Below are positions 21,647 through 32,444 of a DNA stretch of 64,000 nucleotides, piece after piece. The position numbers and the translations under genes were made by a program. The DNA is taken from NCBI RefSeq assembly GCF_030530745.1, contig NZ_JAUMUI010000002.1:27104-91103 (forward strand), given 5' to 3'. Each line of letters opens with the position of its first letter. Position 1 is the first letter of the stretch. The notes under the pieces were generated by a model. The model was given only the letters and a program-made list of their open reading frames with translations, searched no databases and had not been told where the DNA came from. The stretch is from Neisseria sp. (lineage in GTDB: Bacteria; Pseudomonadota; Gammaproteobacteria; Burkholderiales; Neisseriaceae).

Positions 21647-24013
21647 TTAACGCCTCAGTTGCGCACCTGCACTTTCAGCGGCGTATTCCACCAGTTTTTC
21701 GATTAAAGGCTCCACCGCATCATCGGTCAGCGTGGCCTCATGATCTTGCAGCACCACCTTCACCGCCATGCTTTTCGTCCCTTCCGGCAGCCCTGCCCCG
21801 CGGTAAACGTCGAACACGCTGATTTCTTGAACCAATTTGCTCTTCATCCCCCACAAAGCGGCCAGCAGCGTATCATGCGTTACCTCTTCGGGCAGCACAA
21901 ACGCCAGATCGCGGCGTACGGGCTGGAATTTGGATACGGGGCGGTAAACGGTTTTTTTCCTGCCCAGCACGGCGGCCATGTCGATTTCAAACACCAGCGC
22001 GGCTTGCGGCAGGCCGTATTTTTGCAGCCATTGCGGGTGCAGCTCGCCGATAAAGCCGACGGCATGGCCGTCCATCACGATTTCGGCGGTACGGCCGGGG
22101 TGCAGCGCGGGATGTTCGGCCTTTACGAACGACACGTTTTTACCGCCCAGCAGGGCTTCGACATCGCCTTTCACATCGTAAAAATCGGCCGCACGGATTT
22201 TCCCGCCCCATTGCTCGGGATCGGCGGAGCCGTAAACCAGGCCGCCGATGTGTTCGTTTTGCACGAAACGGCCGTCCGAACCTTTGTTGAACACGCGGGC
22301 GATTTCAAACACGCGCACGCGGTTTTGTTTGCGGTTGAGGTTGTTTTGCAGGATTTCCACCAAACCGCCGATCAGGGTGGAACGCATCACACTGTATTGC
22401 GCCGCCAGCGGGTTTTTCAGGCGGACGGGGTCTTCGTTGGCGGCGAAATCGCGCTCCCATTGCTCGTCAACGAAGGCATAGCTCACCACCTCCTGATAGC
22501 CGCGCGCCGCCATTTGATTGTAAACAGCGAAGCGGCTGCGGCGGGTTTCGGGCAGCGCCAACATTTTCAGACGGCCTGAGGTGTGGTCATCGGGAATGTT
22601 GTCATAGCCGTAGACGCGGGCGATTTCTTCGATTAAATCGGCTTCGATTTCGATGTCGTAACGGAAGCTCGGCGACGTGGTTTGCAGGCCGTCTGAAACT
22701 TTTTTCGGTTGCAGACCCAAGGCGGCCAGAATAGTTTTTATCCGTTCTTCATCAATTTTCACGCCCAGCAGCTTTTCCACCCGCGCCGTGCGCACGGCTA
22801 CGGTTTTGCGTTCGGGCAGCCTGCCTGCCGCTTCAACGATTTCGCCTGCCGCGCCGCCGCAAATCTGCAATACCAGTTCGCTGGCGCGCTCGACGGCGTC
22901 GCGCTGCAATTCAAAGTCCACGCCGCGCTCGAAGCGGAAGGAAGAGTCCGAACCGAAGCCGTATTGGCGCGATTTGCCGGCGATGATTTCCGGCGCGAAC
23001 CAAGCCGCTTCCAGCACGATGTTTTTGGTGCCGTCTGAAACCGCGCTGGCCGCGCCGCCCATCAGCCCGGCCATGCTCAATGTGCCTTGTTCGTCGGCCA
23101 CCACCAAGGTGTTGTCGGCCAGGGTAACGGTTTTTTCGTTCAGGCATTCCAGCGTTTCGCCGTTTTCGGCGCGGCGCACAATCAGGCTGCCTGAAAGTTT
23201 GTCGGCATCAAAAACGTGCATCGGCTGGCCGAGTTCCAGCATCACATAATTGCCGATGTCCACCAGCGCGGAAATGCTGCGCACGCCGCTGCGTTCCAGC
23301 CGCTGCTTCATCCACGCGGGCGTGGCCGCCTGCGCGTCCACGTTTTCAATCACGCGGCTGATAAAGCGGCCGCAGTCGGCAGGCGCGTCAATGCGTACGG
23401 GCTGTATTTTCGCGCTGCCCACCGAGGCCGTCTGAATGTCAGGCTGCCTGAACGCGCAGCCCGTGAGTGCCGCTACTTCGCGCGCCAAACCCTTGATGCT
23501 CAAACAGTCGGCACGGTTGGGCGTGATTTTCAGGGTAAAAACGGTGTCGTCCAAATCCAGATAGTCGCGCAGGTTTTGCCCCACGGGCGCATCGGCGCTC
23601 AGGATGTGCAGGCCGTCCACGCCGTCGTCGGGCAGGCCCAACTCGTCGGTGGAACACAGCATACCGCCCGATTCCACGCCGCGCATTTTGGTGGGCTTGA
23701 TTTTGAAACCGCCCGGCAACACCGCACCCGGCAAGGCACACGGCACTTTGATGCCGGCACGCACATTCGGTGCACCGCAAACGATTTGAATCAGCCCGCC
23801 GGTGCCGGCATCGACTTGGGTAACGTTCAGGCGGTCTGCATCGGGGTGTTTTTCCACCGATTTCACTTCCGCCACCACTACATTAGAGAAAGCAGGCGCG
23901 GCGGGTTCGGTTTCTTCCACCTCCAAACCGGCCATGGTTAACAGGTGCGCCAGTTCGTCGGCGGAAAGATTGGGATGGGCTTGGGTGTTCAGCCAGGAAT
24001 AGGGGAATTGCAT
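21647..24013 (-). CDS. pheT: Phenylalanine-tRNA ligase beta subunit
   Basis: PheT with PheS charges tRNA-Phe. The 788-residue product starts MQFPYSWLNTQAHP. It has the N-terminal tRNA-binding EMAP/OB domain (about 40-150), B3/B4 editing domain, B5, the catalytic-like core and the C-terminal anticodon-binding FDX-ACB domain (FQPVRRDLAFVLPEEV). Length is standard. Normally it directly follows pheS; here about 3.5 kb of defence-related genes separate them. Two AGGCTGCCTGAA words (23184 and 23441) lie within the gene. Confidence 0.97.
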   Translation of the reverse strand: MQFPYSWLNTQAHPNLSADELAHLLTMAGLEVEETEPAAPAFSNVVVAEVKSVEKHPDADRLNVTQVDAGTGGLIQIVCGAPNVRAGIKVPCALPGAVLPGGFKIKPTKMRGVESGGMLCSTDELGLPDDGVDGLHILSADAPVGQNLRDYLDLDDTVFTLKITPNRADCLSIKGLAREVAALTGCAFRQPDIQTASVGSAKIQPVRIDAPADCGRFISRVIENVDAQAATPAWMKQRLERSGVRSISALVDIGNYVMLELGQPMHVFDADKLSGSLIVRRAENGETLECLNEKTVTLADNTLVVADEQGTLSMAGLMGGAASAVSDGTKNIVLEAAWFAPEIIAGKSRQYGFGSDSSFRFERGVDFELQRDAVERASELVLQICGGAAGEIVEAAGRLPERKTVAVRTARVEKLLGVKIDEERIKTILAALGLQPKKVSDGLQTTSPSFRYDIEIEADLIEEIARVYGYDNIPDDHTSGRLKMLALPETRRSRFAVYNQMAARGYQEVVSYAFVDEQWERDFAANEDPVRLKNPLAAQYSVMRSTLIGGLVEILQNNLNRKQNRVRVFEIARVFNKGSDGRFVQNEHIGGLVYGSADPEQWGGKIRAADFYDVKGDVEALLGGKNVSFVKAEHPALHPGRTAEIVMDGHAVGFIGELHPQWLQKYGLPQAALVFEIDMAAVLGRKKTVYRPVSKFQPVRRDLAFVLPEEVTHDTLLAALWGMKSKLVQEISVFDVYRGAGLPEGTKSMAVKVVLQDHEATLTDDAVEPLIEKLVEYAAESAGAQLRR

Positions 24014-24097
24014 GGTTATTGATCTATCAAAATTAAAGGTTATTCACAGGTAATCAACCAGTTTCTAGGAAATTTGAGTTAAGAGGATAATGGCAGT

Positions 24098-24433
24098 CTA
24101 TTTATATATTTTTAATATATTTTTCAACGCCATAATGGAATGGAAAATATGGTTTCTCGGAAAGCTATTACTTTCGTAATCCTTTAATTCATCTTTTTCA
24201 AGATAATCTATAACTAATTTTAAATGTTCTACATATTCATCAGGTAATGAAATCTTGGACATTAAACCATTGTAAGGAAAGAAACCTTGGAAAATCAAAT
24301 CATCGGAGTCAAGCACTATTTCCCCATGCTTACACATTTCTTTTGCTTTATCAATTGCACTAGATACAGTTTCCGCTTCGATGATTATGTTACGACTCAG
24401 GATCTCTTTAACTTCAACTTCAAACAATTCCAT
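24098..24433 (-). CDS. DpnD/PcfM-like protein
   Basis: The 111-residue product begins MELFEVEVKEILSRNIIIEAET and continues SAIDKAKEMCKHGEIVLDSDD, which resembles the DpnD/PcfM family. DpnD is the uncharacterised partner encoded after the DpnI endonuclease in the pneumococcal DpnI cassette. The gene directly follows the DpnI homologue, reproducing the dpnC-dpnD order. It is clearly more AT-rich than its neighbours, pointing to transfer. I chose the ATG at 24433; a TTG at 24454 overlapping the drg stop is an alternative. The family match is from memory of its conserved core. Confidence 0.65.
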   Translation of the reverse strand: MELFEVEVKEILSRNIIIEAETVSSAIDKAKEMCKHGEIVLDSDDLIFQGFFPYNGLMSKISLPDEYVEHLKLVIDYLEKDELKDYESNSFPRNHIFHSIMALKNILKIYK

Positions 24434-24450
24434 TTTCACTTTCTCTTTTA

Positions 24451-25224
24451 TCAAATGGCCAGTTTCCGATACTGCCCACGGGCGGAAAACTCGATTACAT
24501 TTTGATCACGCAAAATCTGCAACTGCTGGCGGATTTTATCCTTAACATGATTATTTTCAGGAAATTGAATCGACAATTGTTTTTCAAATCCATATACCTG
24601 TTGCAAATTAAATTGCTCAGGTAGCCTTTCGATGCATTTCATAATGGCTAGCAGCCATCCTTTATTGGCTGCTTTTTGCTTTCTTAAAAACAGGCTCGTT
24701 TTCCATTGTTCGTGTACCCGTTCGGGTTCAATCATCCGGGCTTGCTCAACCAATAAGATTTTACCGCTTTCAGGCAGTGTGCCGATGTTTATCGTGCAAC
24801 CAACCCAGCCTGCCCGTTTTGCGGTTTCAGGCAAAGGTTTGCGGCGGGCAATCATATCGGCGGTCATAAAATGCTTGGGTACCAGCATGAGCTGCTGCAC
24901 GGAATAATCGGCTTTGCTGTACGACAGGAAAAAGAAATTGGGGTTGTCGTCGGCCTGAATCCGCTCCATCATGGTTTGGTATGCGCCATCATTAACGGTT
25001 TTCCCTGTTGATTTCCCCTGTTTGCTTTTCAGTTCGAATTGTTCGTTGCAGTGGGAACACAGAAAATCTTGTACGGGGCGGTTGTTCGGTGCTTTACTTA
25101 TCGGTTTGCAGCCGCAATTCGGACAATACACATTTGCCCCCATCCAGTTTTCAGTCAAAACACGGACAATTTGAGCAGCATTTTTATAACCCTCTGCCAA
25201 GCATGTATCGAAATACAAGTTCAC
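24451..25224 (-). CDS. drg: DpnI-type methyl-directed restriction endonuclease (dam-replacing gene)
   Basis: DpnI cleaves GATC only when adenine is methylated. The 257-residue product shows the family zinc knuckle (C34, C37, C56, C59), the PD-(D/E)XK centre D53 and E64-L65-K66, the long NPNFFFLSYSK stretch, and a C-terminal winged-helix domain (HVKDKIRQQLQILRDQNVIEF) that reads methylated DNA. It starts at GTG 25224, overlapping the stop of truncated dam by GTGA. In Neisseria such a gene, drg, is known to replace dam. An active enzyme requires a host without Dam methylation, consistent with the broken dam next to it. Confidence 0.92.
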   Translation of the reverse strand: MNLYFDTCLAEGYKNAAQIVRVLTENWMGANVYCPNCGCKPISKAPNNRPVQDFLCSHCNEQFELKSKQGKSTGKTVNDGAYQTMMERIQADDNPNFFFLSYSKADYSVQQLMLVPKHFMTADMIARRKPLPETAKRAGWVGCTINIGTLPESGKILLVEQARMIEPERVHEQWKTSLFLRKQKAANKGWLLAIMKCIERLPEQFNLQQVYGFEKQLSIQFPENNHVKDKIRQQLQILRDQNVIEFSARGQYRKLAI

Positions 25225-25832
25225 TGCACGAAACCTTTCGCATACGACGTAAACGATGCGGTTTCGCTCAGCGGCACATAAGGCGGATCGCAATAGACCA
25301 CATCGTCATCACCTGCCTGATTTAAGGCTGCCTGAAAATCACCGCACATCAATTCGATGCGCTCGGACTTGTCAGCAAAGGCTTGCATTTCCGTTGCGGG
25401 AAAATAAGGGGCGCTGTAACGGCCAAAGGGAACGTTAAACATGCCTTTGCTGTTGTAGCGGCACAAGCCGTTAAAGGCATGTCGGTTCAAATAAACAAAC
25501 AAGGCAGAACGCTCGGCAATATTGCGGCTGTGGTTGAATTGTTCGCGCAGCTCGTAAAAGCGGGCTTCCTGATTATTTTCAGAAATAAAAAACGAACGGG
25601 CATATTCTATGAACGATTGCTTTTCCTGTTTTAATGTCCGGAAAAGGCCAATCAAATCAGGATTGGTGTCGTTTAACAGATAGGCATCAAAGTCCAAAGC
25701 CAGCGATAAGGCAGCTGATCCCGCAAACGGCTCAATCAAGCGCTTGCAGGGATTTTGGGGCATATGGGCGGCAATAAACGGCGCCAGTTTGGCTTTGCCG
25801 CCTGCCCATTTCAGAAAAGGTTTATTTGACAT
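25221..25832 (-). pseudogene. dam: Truncated Dam adenine methyltransferase
   Basis: Dam methylates adenine in GATC. The 203 residues match Dam from motif X (FLKWAGGK, residues 6-13) and motif I (EPFAGSAAL, about 34-42) through the target-recognition region (NRHAFNGLCRYN, FNVPFGRY) to motif IV D182-P-P-Y and SETASFTSYAKGF. Translation then stops, while E. coli Dam continues about 75 residues. The missing part holds motifs V-VIII, so the protein is probably inactive. The break coincides with the drg start, so the 3' end was replaced. It overlaps mntA by 22 bp. Confidence 0.88.
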
Positions 25833-26164
25833 GGTGGGTACTTTATTTTCAGGCAGCCTGAAAGGTTTCTGGCCGTCTGTATCACGTAATGCTGTTGTTG
25901 GATGATTTTCCTAAACTCTTCACTGATCAACTGCCAGTCGGCAATATCCACTTTCCAAGGCAGGTCGGATTCGGAAAAGGCTTCCGTCAAAGCGGCGTGT
26001 TCGGCCAGGGTCAGGGCTTGCGGTGCGATAACGGCCAGATCCAAATCGGAATAGGGTTTGGCCGTGCCCGTTACCCGCGAGCCGAATGCCCATACGGTGT
26101 AATCGGGGATGTGTCGGCGCAGAATCTGTTTGACGGTCTGCAAATGTCCGGCTGCAATATCCAT
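25811..26164 (-). CDS. mntA: MntA-type minimal nucleotidyltransferase antitoxin
   Basis: MNT antitoxins of HEPN/MNT modules transfer AMP to the partner toxin to silence it. The 117-residue product has the GSX10DXD signature (G28-S29, D40, D42 in FGSRVTGTAKPYSDLDLAV) and a third acidic residue D73 (WKVDIADW), a full catalytic triad. It starts one base after the hepT stop. Its last residues read through a king/sim-type uptake word (25851-25862), so the C-terminal tail looks non-native. Family assignment is strong, substrate and partner inferred from neighbours. Confidence 0.85.
   Translation of the reverse strand: MDIAAGHLQTVKQILRRHIPDYTVWAFGSRVTGTAKPYSDLDLAVIAPQALTLAEHAALTEAFSESDLPWKVDIADWQLISEEFRKIIQQQHYVIQTARNLSGCLKIKYPPCQINLF
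25849..25862. repeat. Non-native uptake word TTCAGGCAGCCTGAA
   Basis: This reads AGGCAGCCTGAA on the plus strand and AGGCTGCCTGAA on the minus strand, the uptake dialects described for Kingella and Simonsiella, whereas nearly all words in this window are AGGCCGTCTGAA. Confidence 0.75.
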
Positions 26165-26575
26165 TCAGTTTCCCAGTCTGCGGTTAAGCATATCCCGTAA
26201 AAACACGGCTTCGGCGAGAAATTGTTCAATGCCGCCCACCACGGCCAGAACGGTTTTTTCGTCATAAGTATGGCTGGTGCGGCTGCGCATATCGCAATAC
26301 TGCCGCCAATCCGACCAGTCGCCGCGCAGCAAGCCCTGCTCGTTGGCAGTGCGGATCAGGTCTTGGAAGGTCATCGCATCAATCTCGGCAGGATTGGCGG
26401 AAGCGTGTTCCAAATACCGCTTCAATATTTTATGGGCGATTTCGTAGGTAAATTCAAAACGCTGAATCAGGCCGTCGCGGATTTGGGTGTCGGAAACGTC
26501 TTTCAGGTAGCGTTCCCAACCCTCCTGCAAACGGGCAACGGCATTGGTCAGGGGCTGGATGGATAATGTCTGCAT
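26165..26575 (-). CDS. hepT: HepT-type HEPN toxin
   Basis: HEPN toxins are small helical RNases. The 136-residue product belongs to the HI0074-like nucleotidyltransferase-substrate family: long helices (ALVARLQEG-type N-terminus, RFEFTYEIAHKILKRYL) and the RX4HXY catalytic and modification motif R97-SRTS-H102-T-Y104. In characterised pairs the tyrosine is AMPylated by the MNT partner. It is encoded directly before mntA with abutting stop and start, the standard toxin-antitoxin arrangement. Whether it is toxic here is an inference. Confidence 0.85.
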   Translation of the reverse strand: MQTLSIQPLTNAVARLQEGWERYLKDVSDTQIRDGLIQRFEFTYEIAHKILKRYLEHASANPAEIDAMTFQDLIRTANEQGLLRGDWSDWRQYCDMRSRTSHTYDEKTVLAVVGGIEQFLAEAVFLRDMLNRRLGN

Positions 26576-26589
26576 GGGAATTCCGGTTT

Positions 26590-26603
26590 TCAGGCAGCCT
26601 GAA
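26590..26603. repeat. Non-native uptake word TTCAGGCAGCCTGAA
   Basis: A second palindromic AGGCAGCCTGAA/AGGCTGCCTGAA word, located just upstream of hepT. Confidence 0.75.
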
Positions 26604-27564: not shown

Positions 27565-29270
<1,706 letters not shown>

Positions 29271-32200
29271 ATGTCAAACCAAATCATCCTCACCGTTATC
29301 CCGACGAAAGGTGCATCAACTGCCGGACGGACCGCCCGTTTCAATGTAAATGCCGGTTCCGGCCAAGCCTTGCACATACAGGCAGCCGCACTCTCTGATT
29401 ACCAGCTTGCCGACGCCGCCACCGGCCTTGCCCCTGAAAATCTGGAATTTACCCGTATGGGCGACAATCTGCATATCCGCAGCAAAGCTTCTGCTTCCGG
29501 CCGTCCCGATATCGTAATCGAAAACTACTATGCCCATAACGGCAATATCAAAGGTTTGCAGGCAGACGGATCGTCGGCCGCCTATGACGGAAAAATCCCT
29601 GCCAAGCCCTTGGCAGCCGAACAAGTAACCGTACACCAAAGCGGCGCCGGCAACGGCGTAAACAAACTGGCCGTAACTTTGGGCGGCTTGGCGGGAGTGG
29701 GCCTGCTCGGCGCATTGGCAGGCGGCGGAGGCGGGGGCGGAAGCAGCACCAACCCGTCTCCGACCGCTGTGGCAACCCAAAGCAATGCATCTTCGACAGC
29801 CGCACAAACTGCCGCTTCGTCTGCCAATACAGCCACCACTCCCAAAACCACGGCAACAGCCGCTCAAACCGCATCTTCAAACTCTGCCGTACAAACAAAT
29901 ACTGCAACAGAAACTGCTTCCGTTTCTATTGCAGAAGAAGCCGAGGAAACAGCAGATGCCGCACCCGTCAGCACAACTGATCCCGAATCCGCAGGCACGC
30001 CGTCTGAAACCGTTTCCGCTGCCGCCAAAGACAGCGGACAAAAAACGGCTGATACTGCAACTGCAATCTCATCCGGCGGCACTACCGTATCCGATGCGCA
30101 AAGCACCGCACCCGGCAGCACAACTGTGCCCGAACCCGCAGGCATGCCGTCTGAAACCGTTTCCGCTTCCGGCAAAGAAAGCGGACAAAAAACGGCTGAT
30201 ACGGCAACCTCATCCGGCAACACTGCCGTAACGGCAGATACCGTTGCAAACAACAATAATCCGGCAAATGATTCAACAGCAGCAACCTCCCCGACCGGGG
30301 CTGTTTCAACAAACTCTGCCGCCACAGTTTCAGACGGCCCAACCGCAACGCAAAACGGCTACCGTGTATATGAACACCCGCAATACGGAAAATATATCGA
30401 TGCCACCGAATTCGGCACCGATCCGAGCGGCCAAACCGACAGCCTTGCCGCTATCAACGCCGCTTTGGCTGCGGCCCATCTGGAAAACGCCGCCGTATAT
30501 TTGAGCGGCAGCCTGTATATTTCAGATCAAATTATATTGAACGAAACCAATTCCGGCGTAACCGGCCTGTTTGGCGACGGCATGGGTAAAACCACTATTT
30601 CGTTCGACAAAGAGCAAACCGGCGTGTTCAACCCCAACAGCAACGAAGACGACATCCGTGCTTTCGCCGGCATCCTTATCGACGGCCAAAGCAACAAAAC
30701 CATTGCCGAGCTGTCGGTGAAATATACCAATCCCGATTTTTACCGTAAGGGTCTGAGCTATTTCGGCAAGGTTAGCGGTATTCTGGTAAACGATGCCGAC
30801 AATACCCTCATCAGCAAAGTAGAAGTATCCGGAGCCAACCGTGCCGGTGTGTATTTCACCTCTACCAAAACCCTGACATCCGATCCCGAAAGCCCCCAAG
30901 GCCGTACCTATAAAGCCCGCCTGATCCGCGGCGAAGTAGATGAAACCTACGAAAGCCTGCCCTTGGGTGAAAACAACCGCATCGTCGACAGCAATCTGCA
31001 CCACAACCGTGTGGCCGGTGTATTGGTTTCTTACCAGAAAAACTTTGTGGCCGACAACAACACCATGTCGTGGAACGGCCACGAAGCCGACGGCGGCACC
31101 GGTTACGGCATCGCCAGCATGGCAGGCAGCTACAACTTCGGCATCACCTTTACCAACAACAAAACCGATCACAACTACCGCAAAGGTTTGGATGTGCACG
31201 ACGGCGACAACATCGTGATTGAAAACAACACCTCAAACGGCGACCGCCTCAACGGCATTGCCGTGTATAACCGCCAATTCACGATGGATACGGTGAAAAT
31301 CAGCAATAACACCATCATTGCCGATCCGAACTTCCGCTTGGAACAAGACGACGATTTGGGAAGCCGCTACCACGGTTATGCGGGCATTCAAATCCAAACC
31401 AACACCATGAACCGCGATTTGCGCAGCAGCGATACCGGCCATTTTGAAATCAGCAACAACACTGTTTCAAATCTGGATGTTTACCAAAATGCCATACAGA
31501 CATACGGCATCGAGTTCCGCAACCATGAACCGCACATGCACTACACGCTCGACATTACCGGCAACACTATCGAAGGCGAATCCTCGAAATATGCCATTGC
31601 TATTATCAACAACACAAAAAACAATACCTTAGGCACAAACGGCGAAGGATCGGGCACCATCAACATTCTGAACAACAACATCGACATCGGCAGCATCCTC
31701 AAAGGCGCCATGCCCATCTTTATTATCGAAGAGAGCAACAGCGGCCAACTGCGCGGCGAAGTTACCGTATCGGGCAACAGTCTGACCATTCGCGAAGCAT
31801 CCGACGGCACCATTGAAGGCGTTCAAATGGTGGGCAATGCCGAAACCTACCGCGTTACCGACAACACCTTTGAAATCCACGGCACCATGGACAAACCCGT
31901 TGTCAGCTTGCTCGGCCGCGCAGGCGGAGAGATTCCCGAACTGATTGTCAGCGGCAACGACATCACTACAGACTTGACCGGCAACCTCTACCGCAGCTGG
32001 ATCGAACGCAATGCTGTTGTCGATGTTTATGCCGACAACAATACCCACAACGGTAAAGAGCTGGCAGAAGTGAAACATATCGTTTCTACTCCTGCTGCAG
32101 GCTATGCACCCGAAACTGCCGAAACGGTTGAAACCGCCGAAACCGCCCACGTTTTAGATTTGGGCATCGGCAGCAACACCATATCGGGTACCGACTCCTA

Positions 32201-32444
32201 CCAAACGGCATCCAAACAAACGGCAACAGCCTCGGAAAATGCAGCAGAACTTTCCGGCCCGGCTTCAGGCAGCCTGTCGGCCCTGAACGATTTGCTTGCC
32301 GCTACCGAGTTGGATTTATCCTCCCTTTTAGGCAAAGAGAGTGGAGCGGGATTAGCCGTCGGCACTGCAGACACAAAATACGCACAATCTCTGAACATCA
32401 GTGAAGAACAGTGGCAAAGTGAAGTTTCCGCCCATATTGTGTAA
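29271..32444 (+). CDS. Large beta-helix protein with Bap-like N-terminal prefix, putative secreted surface protein
   Basis: The 1057-residue product has no Sec signal. Residues 1-135 (LEFTRMGDNLHIRSK, PDIVIENYY) resemble the prefix domain of Bap/BapA-type type I secreted adhesins, followed by a small hydrophobic and Gly-rich stretch (about 136-158). Residues 159-355 are a Thr/Ser/Ala linker with two imperfect repeats. Residues about 360-920 form a right-handed beta-helix of the pectate-lyase/epimerase type (repeated NNT and ISNNT turns, DATEFGTDPSGQTDSLAAINAAL at its start). The tail (920-1057) is acidic and Ala-rich. No RTX repeats are visible. The role could be polysaccharide binding or cleavage, or adhesion. 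Confidence 0.72.
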   Translation: MSNQIILTVIPTKGASTAGRTARFNVNAGSGQALHIQAAALSDYQLADAATGLAPENLEFTRMGDNLHIRSKASASGRPDIVIENYYAHNGNIKGLQADGSSAAYDGKIPAKPLAAEQVTVHQSGAGNGVNKLAVTLGGLAGVGLLGALAGGGGGGGSSTNPSPTAVATQSNASSTAAQTAASSANTATTPKTTATAAQTASSNSAVQTNTATETASVSIAEEAEETADAAPVSTTDPESAGTPSETVSAAAKDSGQKTADTATAISSGGTTVSDAQSTAPGSTTVPEPAGMPSETVSASGKESGQKTADTATSSGNTAVTADTVANNNNPANDSTAATSPTGAVSTNSAATVSDGPTATQNGYRVYEHPQYGKYIDATEFGTDPSGQTDSLAAINAALAAAHLENAAVYLSGSLYISDQIILNETNSGVTGLFGDGMGKTTISFDKEQTGVFNPNSNEDDIRAFAGILIDGQSNKTIAELSVKYTNPDFYRKGLSYFGKVSGILVNDADNTLISKVEVSGANRAGVYFTSTKTLTSDPESPQGRTYKARLIRGEVDETYESLPLGENNRIVDSNLHHNRVAGVLVSYQKNFVADNNTMSWNGHEADGGTGYGIASMAGSYNFGITFTNNKTDHNYRKGLDVHDGDNIVIENNTSNGDRLNGIAVYNRQFTMDTVKISNNTIIADPNFRLEQDDDLGSRYHGYAGIQIQTNTMNRDLRSSDTGHFEISNNTVSNLDVYQNAIQTYGIEFRNHEPHMHYTLDITGNTIEGESSKYAIAIINNTKNNTLGTNGEGSGTINILNNNIDIGSILKGAMPIFIIEESNSGQLRGEVTVSGNSLTIREASDGTIEGVQMVGNAETYRVTDNTFEIHGTMDKPVVSLLGRAGGEIPELIVSGNDITTDLTGNLYRSWIERNAVVDVYADNNTHNGKELAEVKHIVSTPAAGYAPETAETVETAETAHVLDLGIGSNTISGTDSYQTASKQTATASENAAELSGPASGSLSALNDLLAATELDLSSLLGKESGAGLAVGTADTKYAQSLNISEEQWQSEVSAHIV

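Follow-up and report, generated by a model that had tools for sequence, protein, structure and literature searches.

A DpnI-type gene cassette joined to a truncated dam gene between pheS and pheT in a Neisseria genome, with comparable hybrids in other bacteria

The locus lies on the minus strand of a 64,000-nucleotide stretch of a Neisseria draft genome of 53 contigs; this whole stretch is called the window, and coordinates refer to it unless a locus is named. Five genes running in a single direction were found between pheS (27565 to 28554, with an ogt-like frame adjoining it) and pheT (21647 to 24013), all on the minus strand. These two genes form the left and right flanks of the slot, pheS being a recurrent neighbour in relatives. 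In order, the five encode a HEPN-type (HI0074-like) subunit (26165 to 26575; PF08780, E 1.4e-33), an MNT nucleotidyltransferase (25811 to 26164; PF01909, E 1.1e-12) whose last codons overlap the start of the next gene, a truncated Dam methylase (dam′, 25221 to 25832), a DpnI homologue (dpnC, or drg; 24451 to 25224) and a DpnD-like protein (24098 to 24433, with the first ATG at 24433). The GC content is 0.482 in dam′, 0.452 in the DpnI gene, 0.300 in the dpnD-like gene and 0.545 in the window.

The 203 residues encoded by dam′ consist of the 5′ 200 codons of a Dam/DpnM methylase followed by FVQ, with PFLKWAGGK at residue 5, DPPY at 182 and FTSYAKGF at 194, and nothing beyond the DPPY motif region. 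The frame contains no internal stop and ends in a GTGA overlap with the DpnI start (25221 to 25224), as the earlier note had described. The match to Pfam MethyltransfD12 (E 7e-57) ends at profile position 199 of 253, and that to the NCBIfam dam subfamily TIGR00571 (E 6e-71) covers positions 2 to 199 of 267, so that dam′ is not the complete GATC methylase of a DpnII-type restriction-modification system. An alignment was made with 20 other Neisseriaceae dam proteins, 18 of them full-length and two (L059 and L076) cut short; the dam of G050, which is in pieces, was excluded. Everything up to AKG is retained in dam′ and the rest is absent, amounting to about 70 C-terminal residues that include the SNHD motif and a GSSRQKV-like block, both of which the 18 full-length proteins have in one form or another. 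Up to the junction the frame is free of frameshifts and stops, and it leaves unbroken all 79 columns that do not vary among the other 20 proteins (L059 breaks one of 80; other rows, 0 to 7). Since no invariant column is broken, either the truncation is recent or the frame is under selection, and dam′ is perhaps kept as a translated leader. The earlier note had called it a fossil: it is indeed truncated, but the unbroken columns make it a recent or a maintained one. Promoters in the leaders were considered and set aside; three promoter-like sites were found, against 4.4 in shuffled sequences. As a test of function, dN/dS was calculated on seven long dam′ sequences and set aside; the values were low, but most of the divergence may predate the insertion. 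In trees, dam′ is nearest, with weak support, to the dams of G040 (pheS/pheT) and G016. The link to G040 received 0.93 in FastTree and 57.9/64 in the IQ-TREE protein tree and was absent from the DNA tree, and descent from a G040-type dam was not adopted on this weak support.

The preferred DpnI frame starts with the GTG at 25224 and ends at 24451, giving 257 residues; the start in the mechanical list of open reading frames, 25293, falls inside dam′. The protein contains the PD-(D/E)XK catalytic domain of the DpnI family with its zinc cysteines (PF06044, E 4.6e-75) and the C-terminal winged-helix domain DpnI_C (E 2.4e-31), and phmmer aligned it with the solved DpnI structures (4esj and 4kyw) at E 1.5e-88 over residues 3 to 256. 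C34, C37, C56 and C59, which we take to be the zinc ligands of DpnI, are present, as are D53, E64 and K66, whose roles in DpnI are described in the accessible part of PMC4117772. The gene that follows, AT-rich as its GC content indicates, matches DpnD-PcfM at E 8.4e-11. Family searches thus bear out what the earlier note had read from the letters, namely a DpnI homologue with its catalytic and zinc residues and a DpnD-like gene behind it, and at such family-level E-values the three assignments (dam′, DpnI and DpnD) are not due to chance. A similar dpnD-like gene, 41% identical, follows drg in L057. Phage carriage was considered and set aside; a scan of viral contigs gave five matches, all to the C-terminal domain alone.

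The window genome (G000) contains one D12 (Dam-type) match above the cut-off and one drg. Neither a second full dam above the D12 cut-off nor a DpnII (PF04556) or MutH match was found in it, in line with the earlier note's reading; a second D12 match, below the cut-off, falls within a 690-residue frame. Two N6_N4 methylases, of 598 and 690 residues, are read from their size as probable type III enzymes. A dpnA-like methylase and a GATC endonuclease are absent from the window slot. A KwaB-like gene adjoins the 598-residue methylase on another contig (C7, L115).

The site was compared with that in relatives, as the earlier note had proposed for dam-positive ones. In three close relatives (L095, L096 and L097), blastn homology stops at 25931, inside the MNT gene, and restarts at 24014, at the start of pheT; L099 and L103 have edges at 25934 and at 24033 or 24017, no more than 20 bases from those of the other three. 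Relative to all five, the window carries an insert of about 1.9 kb (24015 to 25930, minus strand). These were the five loci with HEPN-MNT at the site among 20 fetched upstream of pheT, and none of the five gave a dam or drg match there. In G040, of the same genus, pheS-dam-dpnA-DpnII is intact and runs towards the contig end, where the first 14 codons seen are those of pheT, and in G064 dam-dpnA-DpnII adjoins pheT. The interval between pheS and pheT thus holds HEPN-MNT alone, dam-dpnA-DpnII or the hybrid, in different species, as in a minimal mobile element.

Other intervals are likewise shared. Slots common to drg and dam in different species are gatA/gatB, leuS, ychF-tyrS, mutS, obgE-cysS, uvrD-queA, an S1-domain gene and pheS/pheT (leuS, pheS and pheT were named from sequence, the other neighbours by family searches), and 19 of the 21 drg loci match the dam cassette of another species on one flank or both, several of them on one side only (exceptions, G026 and G081). 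In 20 further genomes, chosen as having neither dam nor drg known at gatA/gatB, the gap between these genes measured 191 to 2438 nt in 18, gatB was not met within about 3.5 kb in two, and no dam or drg match was found in it. The gap may therefore be a general cassette site, and slot sharing, once considered as proof of direct exchange, was retained as weak support.

To see what kind of cassette dam belongs to in the family, 20 loci with a dam orthologue were fetched from relatives. Next to dam there is a dpnA-like match in 17 of them, and a candidate endonuclease, meaning DpnII (PF04556), a Sau3AI/MutH-like nuclease or a protein of 180 to 190 residues with a PDDEXK_11 match below the cut-off, also in 17 (not in L076, L089 or L094). 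By gene content, then, Neisseriaceae dam is mostly the dpnM of a DpnII-type cassette and not a lone housekeeping gene, and a whole restriction-modification cassette was probably overwritten. The earlier note's proposal that dpnCD recombined into dam stands as regards the replaced 3′ end; the dam concerned was probably not a lone gene. In the accessible part of PMC7973814, meningococcal dam and dpnIIb are likewise entered together as a single GATC system. The 180 to 190 residue gene occurs after dam or dam-dpnA in L084, L085, L086 and L088, loci that gave neither a DpnII nor a MutH-like nuclease; it is perhaps an undescribed GATC endonuclease.

PF06044 was found in 21 of 83 family genomes and full-length dam (orthologues of at least 60% identity, from a list that we compiled) in 18, with no overlap (P 0.0025, relatedness ignored). 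Within the genus, drg occurs in 20 of 46 genomes and dam in 13, the overlap being 0 against 5.7 expected (P 1e-4, relatedness ignored). Pieces of a DpnII cassette (tblastn, E 0.01) lie beside drg in eight of the 21 drg loci (the window, L059, L061, L062, L065, L066, L069 and L074) and are lacking in the other 13, whereas drg pieces were found in none of the 20 dam loci (Fisher 0.003). Dam pieces upstream of drg occur only in the window, to codon 200, and in G081, to codon 236, which has its own dam′-drg fusion at a different codon. Five of the eight debris loci are in the leuS slot, where drg is followed by dam from about codons 217 to 221; four share the same junction, and the fifth, L074, has the same order. 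In a recombination test on the four leuS-slot loci, drg and leuS were conserved to about the same degree, which fits a single old event, so that the independent events number about four. The asymmetry suggests that DpnII to DpnI is the usual direction, although such events are few. In L074 (G013), drg is split by two inserted genes, one of them a DUF6884 gene; DpnI thus also decays.

Hybrids of this kind extend beyond the family. A scan of named genomes for DpnI loci gave 511, the best 80 of which, six from Neisseria, had their flanks searched at E 1e-3 with dam, dpnA and DpnII profiles built in this work; two sequences of the scan set, L147 and L171, were used in the building and match the dam profile by construction. 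Among these best 80, up to 22 loci from several phyla gave dam, dpnA or DpnII matches in their flanks. Dam pieces were present in 15, and no dam match spanning the profile, or any elsewhere in these sequences, was found. Fourteen of the 15 pieces lie on the same strand as dpnC and end no more than about 165 nt before it or just inside it; they start at profile position 2 or 3 and end at 18 to 19, 31, 46 to 47, 58, 233 to 236 or 256 to 258 of 272. The fifteenth (L122, a N. gonorrhoeae genome already counted as G023) retains the 3′ part. Matches to dpnA were found in 17 of the best 80, none spanning a profile that is mostly Neisseriaceae and against which a divergent start could mimic a loss. 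A dpnA 5′ stub precedes dpnC in L178 and L182, and in L182 a DpnII piece also follows dpnC; the dpnA matches of L126, L142, L143, L163 and L177, 0.7 to 1.1 kb after dpnC and with no dam piece, may be unrelated methylases.

One pair of hybrids appears to record an exchange. Between L160 (a Taibaiella metagenome-assembled genome) and L169 (Flavobacterium), dS is 1.1 for dam and 0.02 for dpnC, and identity climbs within dam, near L160:2690, from about 0.8 to 0.98–1.0. This points to a probable recent exchange of the dpnC cassette, with the crossover inside the dam piece, as if dam had supplied the crossover arm. A weaker trend in the same direction is seen in L135/L152 (dS 1.07 and 0.32), L160/L171 and L169/L171; it is lacking in pairs with L186 (dS 0.90–0.94 for dpnC and 0.83–1.18 for dam), and those with L147 were saturated or unclear. 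The dam frame ends between −6 and +3 nt of the dpnC start in 13 of 16 hybrids (the other three at −30, −27 and +22), against about five expected for random phase by a hand count from a three-frame table, but ATGAA starts contain TGA, so that part of this signal comes free, and several loci share a junction. The placement is suggestive of translational coupling, and only that. In L135, L147, L152, L160, L169, L171 and L186, a repeat-like stretch between dam′ and dpnC, which we read as resembling a REP-type element, carries the open dam frame on as far as the start of dpnC.

Taken together, the gene content and comparisons make it very probable that the locus is a DpnII-type cassette overwritten downstream of dam codon 200 by dpnC-dpnD, the outcome being a modification-dependent system. 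The ancestral cassette would have comprised dam (dpnM), dpnA and an endonuclease, the last two presumably having followed this dam, and dpnC-dpnD would have taken over everything 3′ of codon 200. The remnant would be inactive as a methylase, the cell would stop methylating GATC, and the predicted DpnI would cleave GmATC-methylated DNA entering from outside; the locus thus most likely serves as a DpnI-type defence against GATC-methylated DNA in a cell without GATC methylation. Reading in the same direction, dam′ probably passes ribosomes to DpnI through the GTGA overlap. Hemimethylated GATC is described as a poor DpnI substrate in the accessible text of PMC12707154, and weak cutting of it could let a switch survive once the methylase supply stops. 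The overwriting is supported by the anatomy, the intact DpnI residues, the lack of another recognised Dam-type methylase in the window genome, the insert-free site in relatives and the recurrence of hybrids. Against it stand the unbroken invariant columns, unlike a long-dead gene, the 13 drg loci free of debris and the weak link to G040.

How and where the hybrid arose is less settled. A simple swap in place at pheS/pheT is not supported, because HEPN-MNT precedes dam′ in the window but not in G040. The dam′-drg-dpnD hybrid may instead have formed elsewhere and moved whole into the gap between MNT and pheT, which we put at slightly under an even chance. The pheS/pheT interval would then simply be a busy cassette site, as it is for restriction-modification cassettes of meningococci in the accessible parts of PMC7973814 and PMC3082526. 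The window drg clusters with gatA/B-type drg (support 0.70), and the gatA-gatB gap, home of many dam and drg cassettes, also varies in genomes with neither known there; the weak affinity of dam′ to the dams of G040 and G016 points the other way. The order of events is similarly balanced. The earlier note had loss of methylation and gain of DpnI as one event, which goes beyond what the sequences record; the chances are about equal that a DpnII-type cassette died, left the DNA unmethylated and was only afterwards joined by DpnI, and this two-step route is at least as likely as a single event. Dam is split by a frameshift in G016 and dam and dpnA are in pieces in G050 (one contig, 85% complete, with possible sequencing errors), both without drg, and G024 has its dpnA and DpnII in incomplete or split form; a direct Dpn switch should be lethal according to the accessible part of PMC3573125. 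The uninterrupted dam′ frame, with every invariant column whole, fits such a prior death poorly.

Two further readings touch the nature of dam′ itself. That the 203-residue Dam still works, or regulates together with DpnI, would suit its conserved open frame and the absence of visible relaxation, but the missing C-terminal block, the fact that an active Dam would make its own chromosome a DpnI substrate, and the different dam lengths retained by the hybrids, G081 included, which define no common minimal form, make this very improbable. An artefactual joining of unrelated contigs, conceivable in a draft assembly, is scarcely credible: dam′ and drg are each present once, flanked by pheS and pheT on a contig of 148 kb, their frames overlap coherently, and junctions of the same kind recur in unrelated genomes. 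Returning to the overwriting of a DpnII-type cassette, we suggest tentatively, as a rather unlikely extension, that dam and dpnA pieces act as homology arms steering DpnI cassettes into DpnII-type loci, the methylase being killed in the same crossover and then serving as a translated leader whose stop codon would sit on the DpnI start. In several Bacteroidota a dpnA piece on the other side could be the second arm. If so, DpnI systems would spread as overwriters of DpnII systems.

The DpnI and DpnII systems are textbook opposites. In pneumococci, DpnI (dpnC-dpnD) and DpnII (dpnM-dpnA-dpnB) belong to the same families as the genes described here and are mutually exclusive alternative cassettes at one site. 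As far as the accessible parts of PMC3573125 and PMC4263131 go, whole cassettes alternate at that locus, whereas the window junction runs through the methylase gene; the latter source reports, for 616 pneumococci, one DpnI/DpnII switch and one replacement of DpnIII by DpnI within sequence clusters. The drg gene of N. meningitidis and N. gonorrhoeae (NmeBII/Drg) is, as in the window, a DpnI homologue interrupting dam, but it sits at leuS and the window hybrid at pheS/pheT. This kind of truncation, to which the earlier note had alluded as the known drg, is published for meningococci (PMC4269198, accessible part), and the window hybrid is one of a series of such events. Minimal mobile elements of Neisseria, with cassettes varying between two conserved genes, pheS/pheT included, are described in the accessible part of PMC3082526; the same holds here, except that the window cassette is a hybrid of two incompatible systems. 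Within the mainly open-access papers searched, in their text and as far as each could be consulted, dam truncated by drg appeared for Neisseria only, and nothing was found on dam stubs before dpnC elsewhere or on a hybrid at pheS/pheT. Judging by the hybrid loci, the DpnII/DpnI switch has happened repeatedly in different bacteria, and the same loci indicate its crossover positions, which make the route reconstructable and testable. Similar wrecks beside DpnI relatives suggest a swap route between GATC systems thought lethal to exchange, and in Neisseriaceae the dam and drg states make more sense as a choice between defence systems than as a housekeeping methylase having been lost.

Several minor features were recorded. 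An inverted repeat of 17 nt (82%) lies at both ends of dam′ (25223 to 25239 and 25860 to 25876); the 2.8 kb that holds it contains other pairs of similar length. Two identical copies of TTTTCAGGCAGCCTGAA flank HEPN-MNT (25846 to 25862 and 26587 to 26603), which we take to be an uptake-signal dialect differing from the 61 copies in the window that we presume to be AG-DUS. A frame of 1057 residues at 29271 to 32444, with a Ser/Thr/Ala-rich front and repeats resembling a parallel beta-helix, perhaps encodes a surface protein. GATC avoidance was considered as a marker of the present system and discarded, the mean ratio being similar, at 0.38 in genomes with drg (21), 0.34 with dam (18) and 0.36 with neither intact (6). 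GATC is strongly avoided in the window (101 observed, 239 expected from a second-order Markov model), and the ratio was at most 0.61 in 44 of the 45 genomes sampled, whichever system they now carry.
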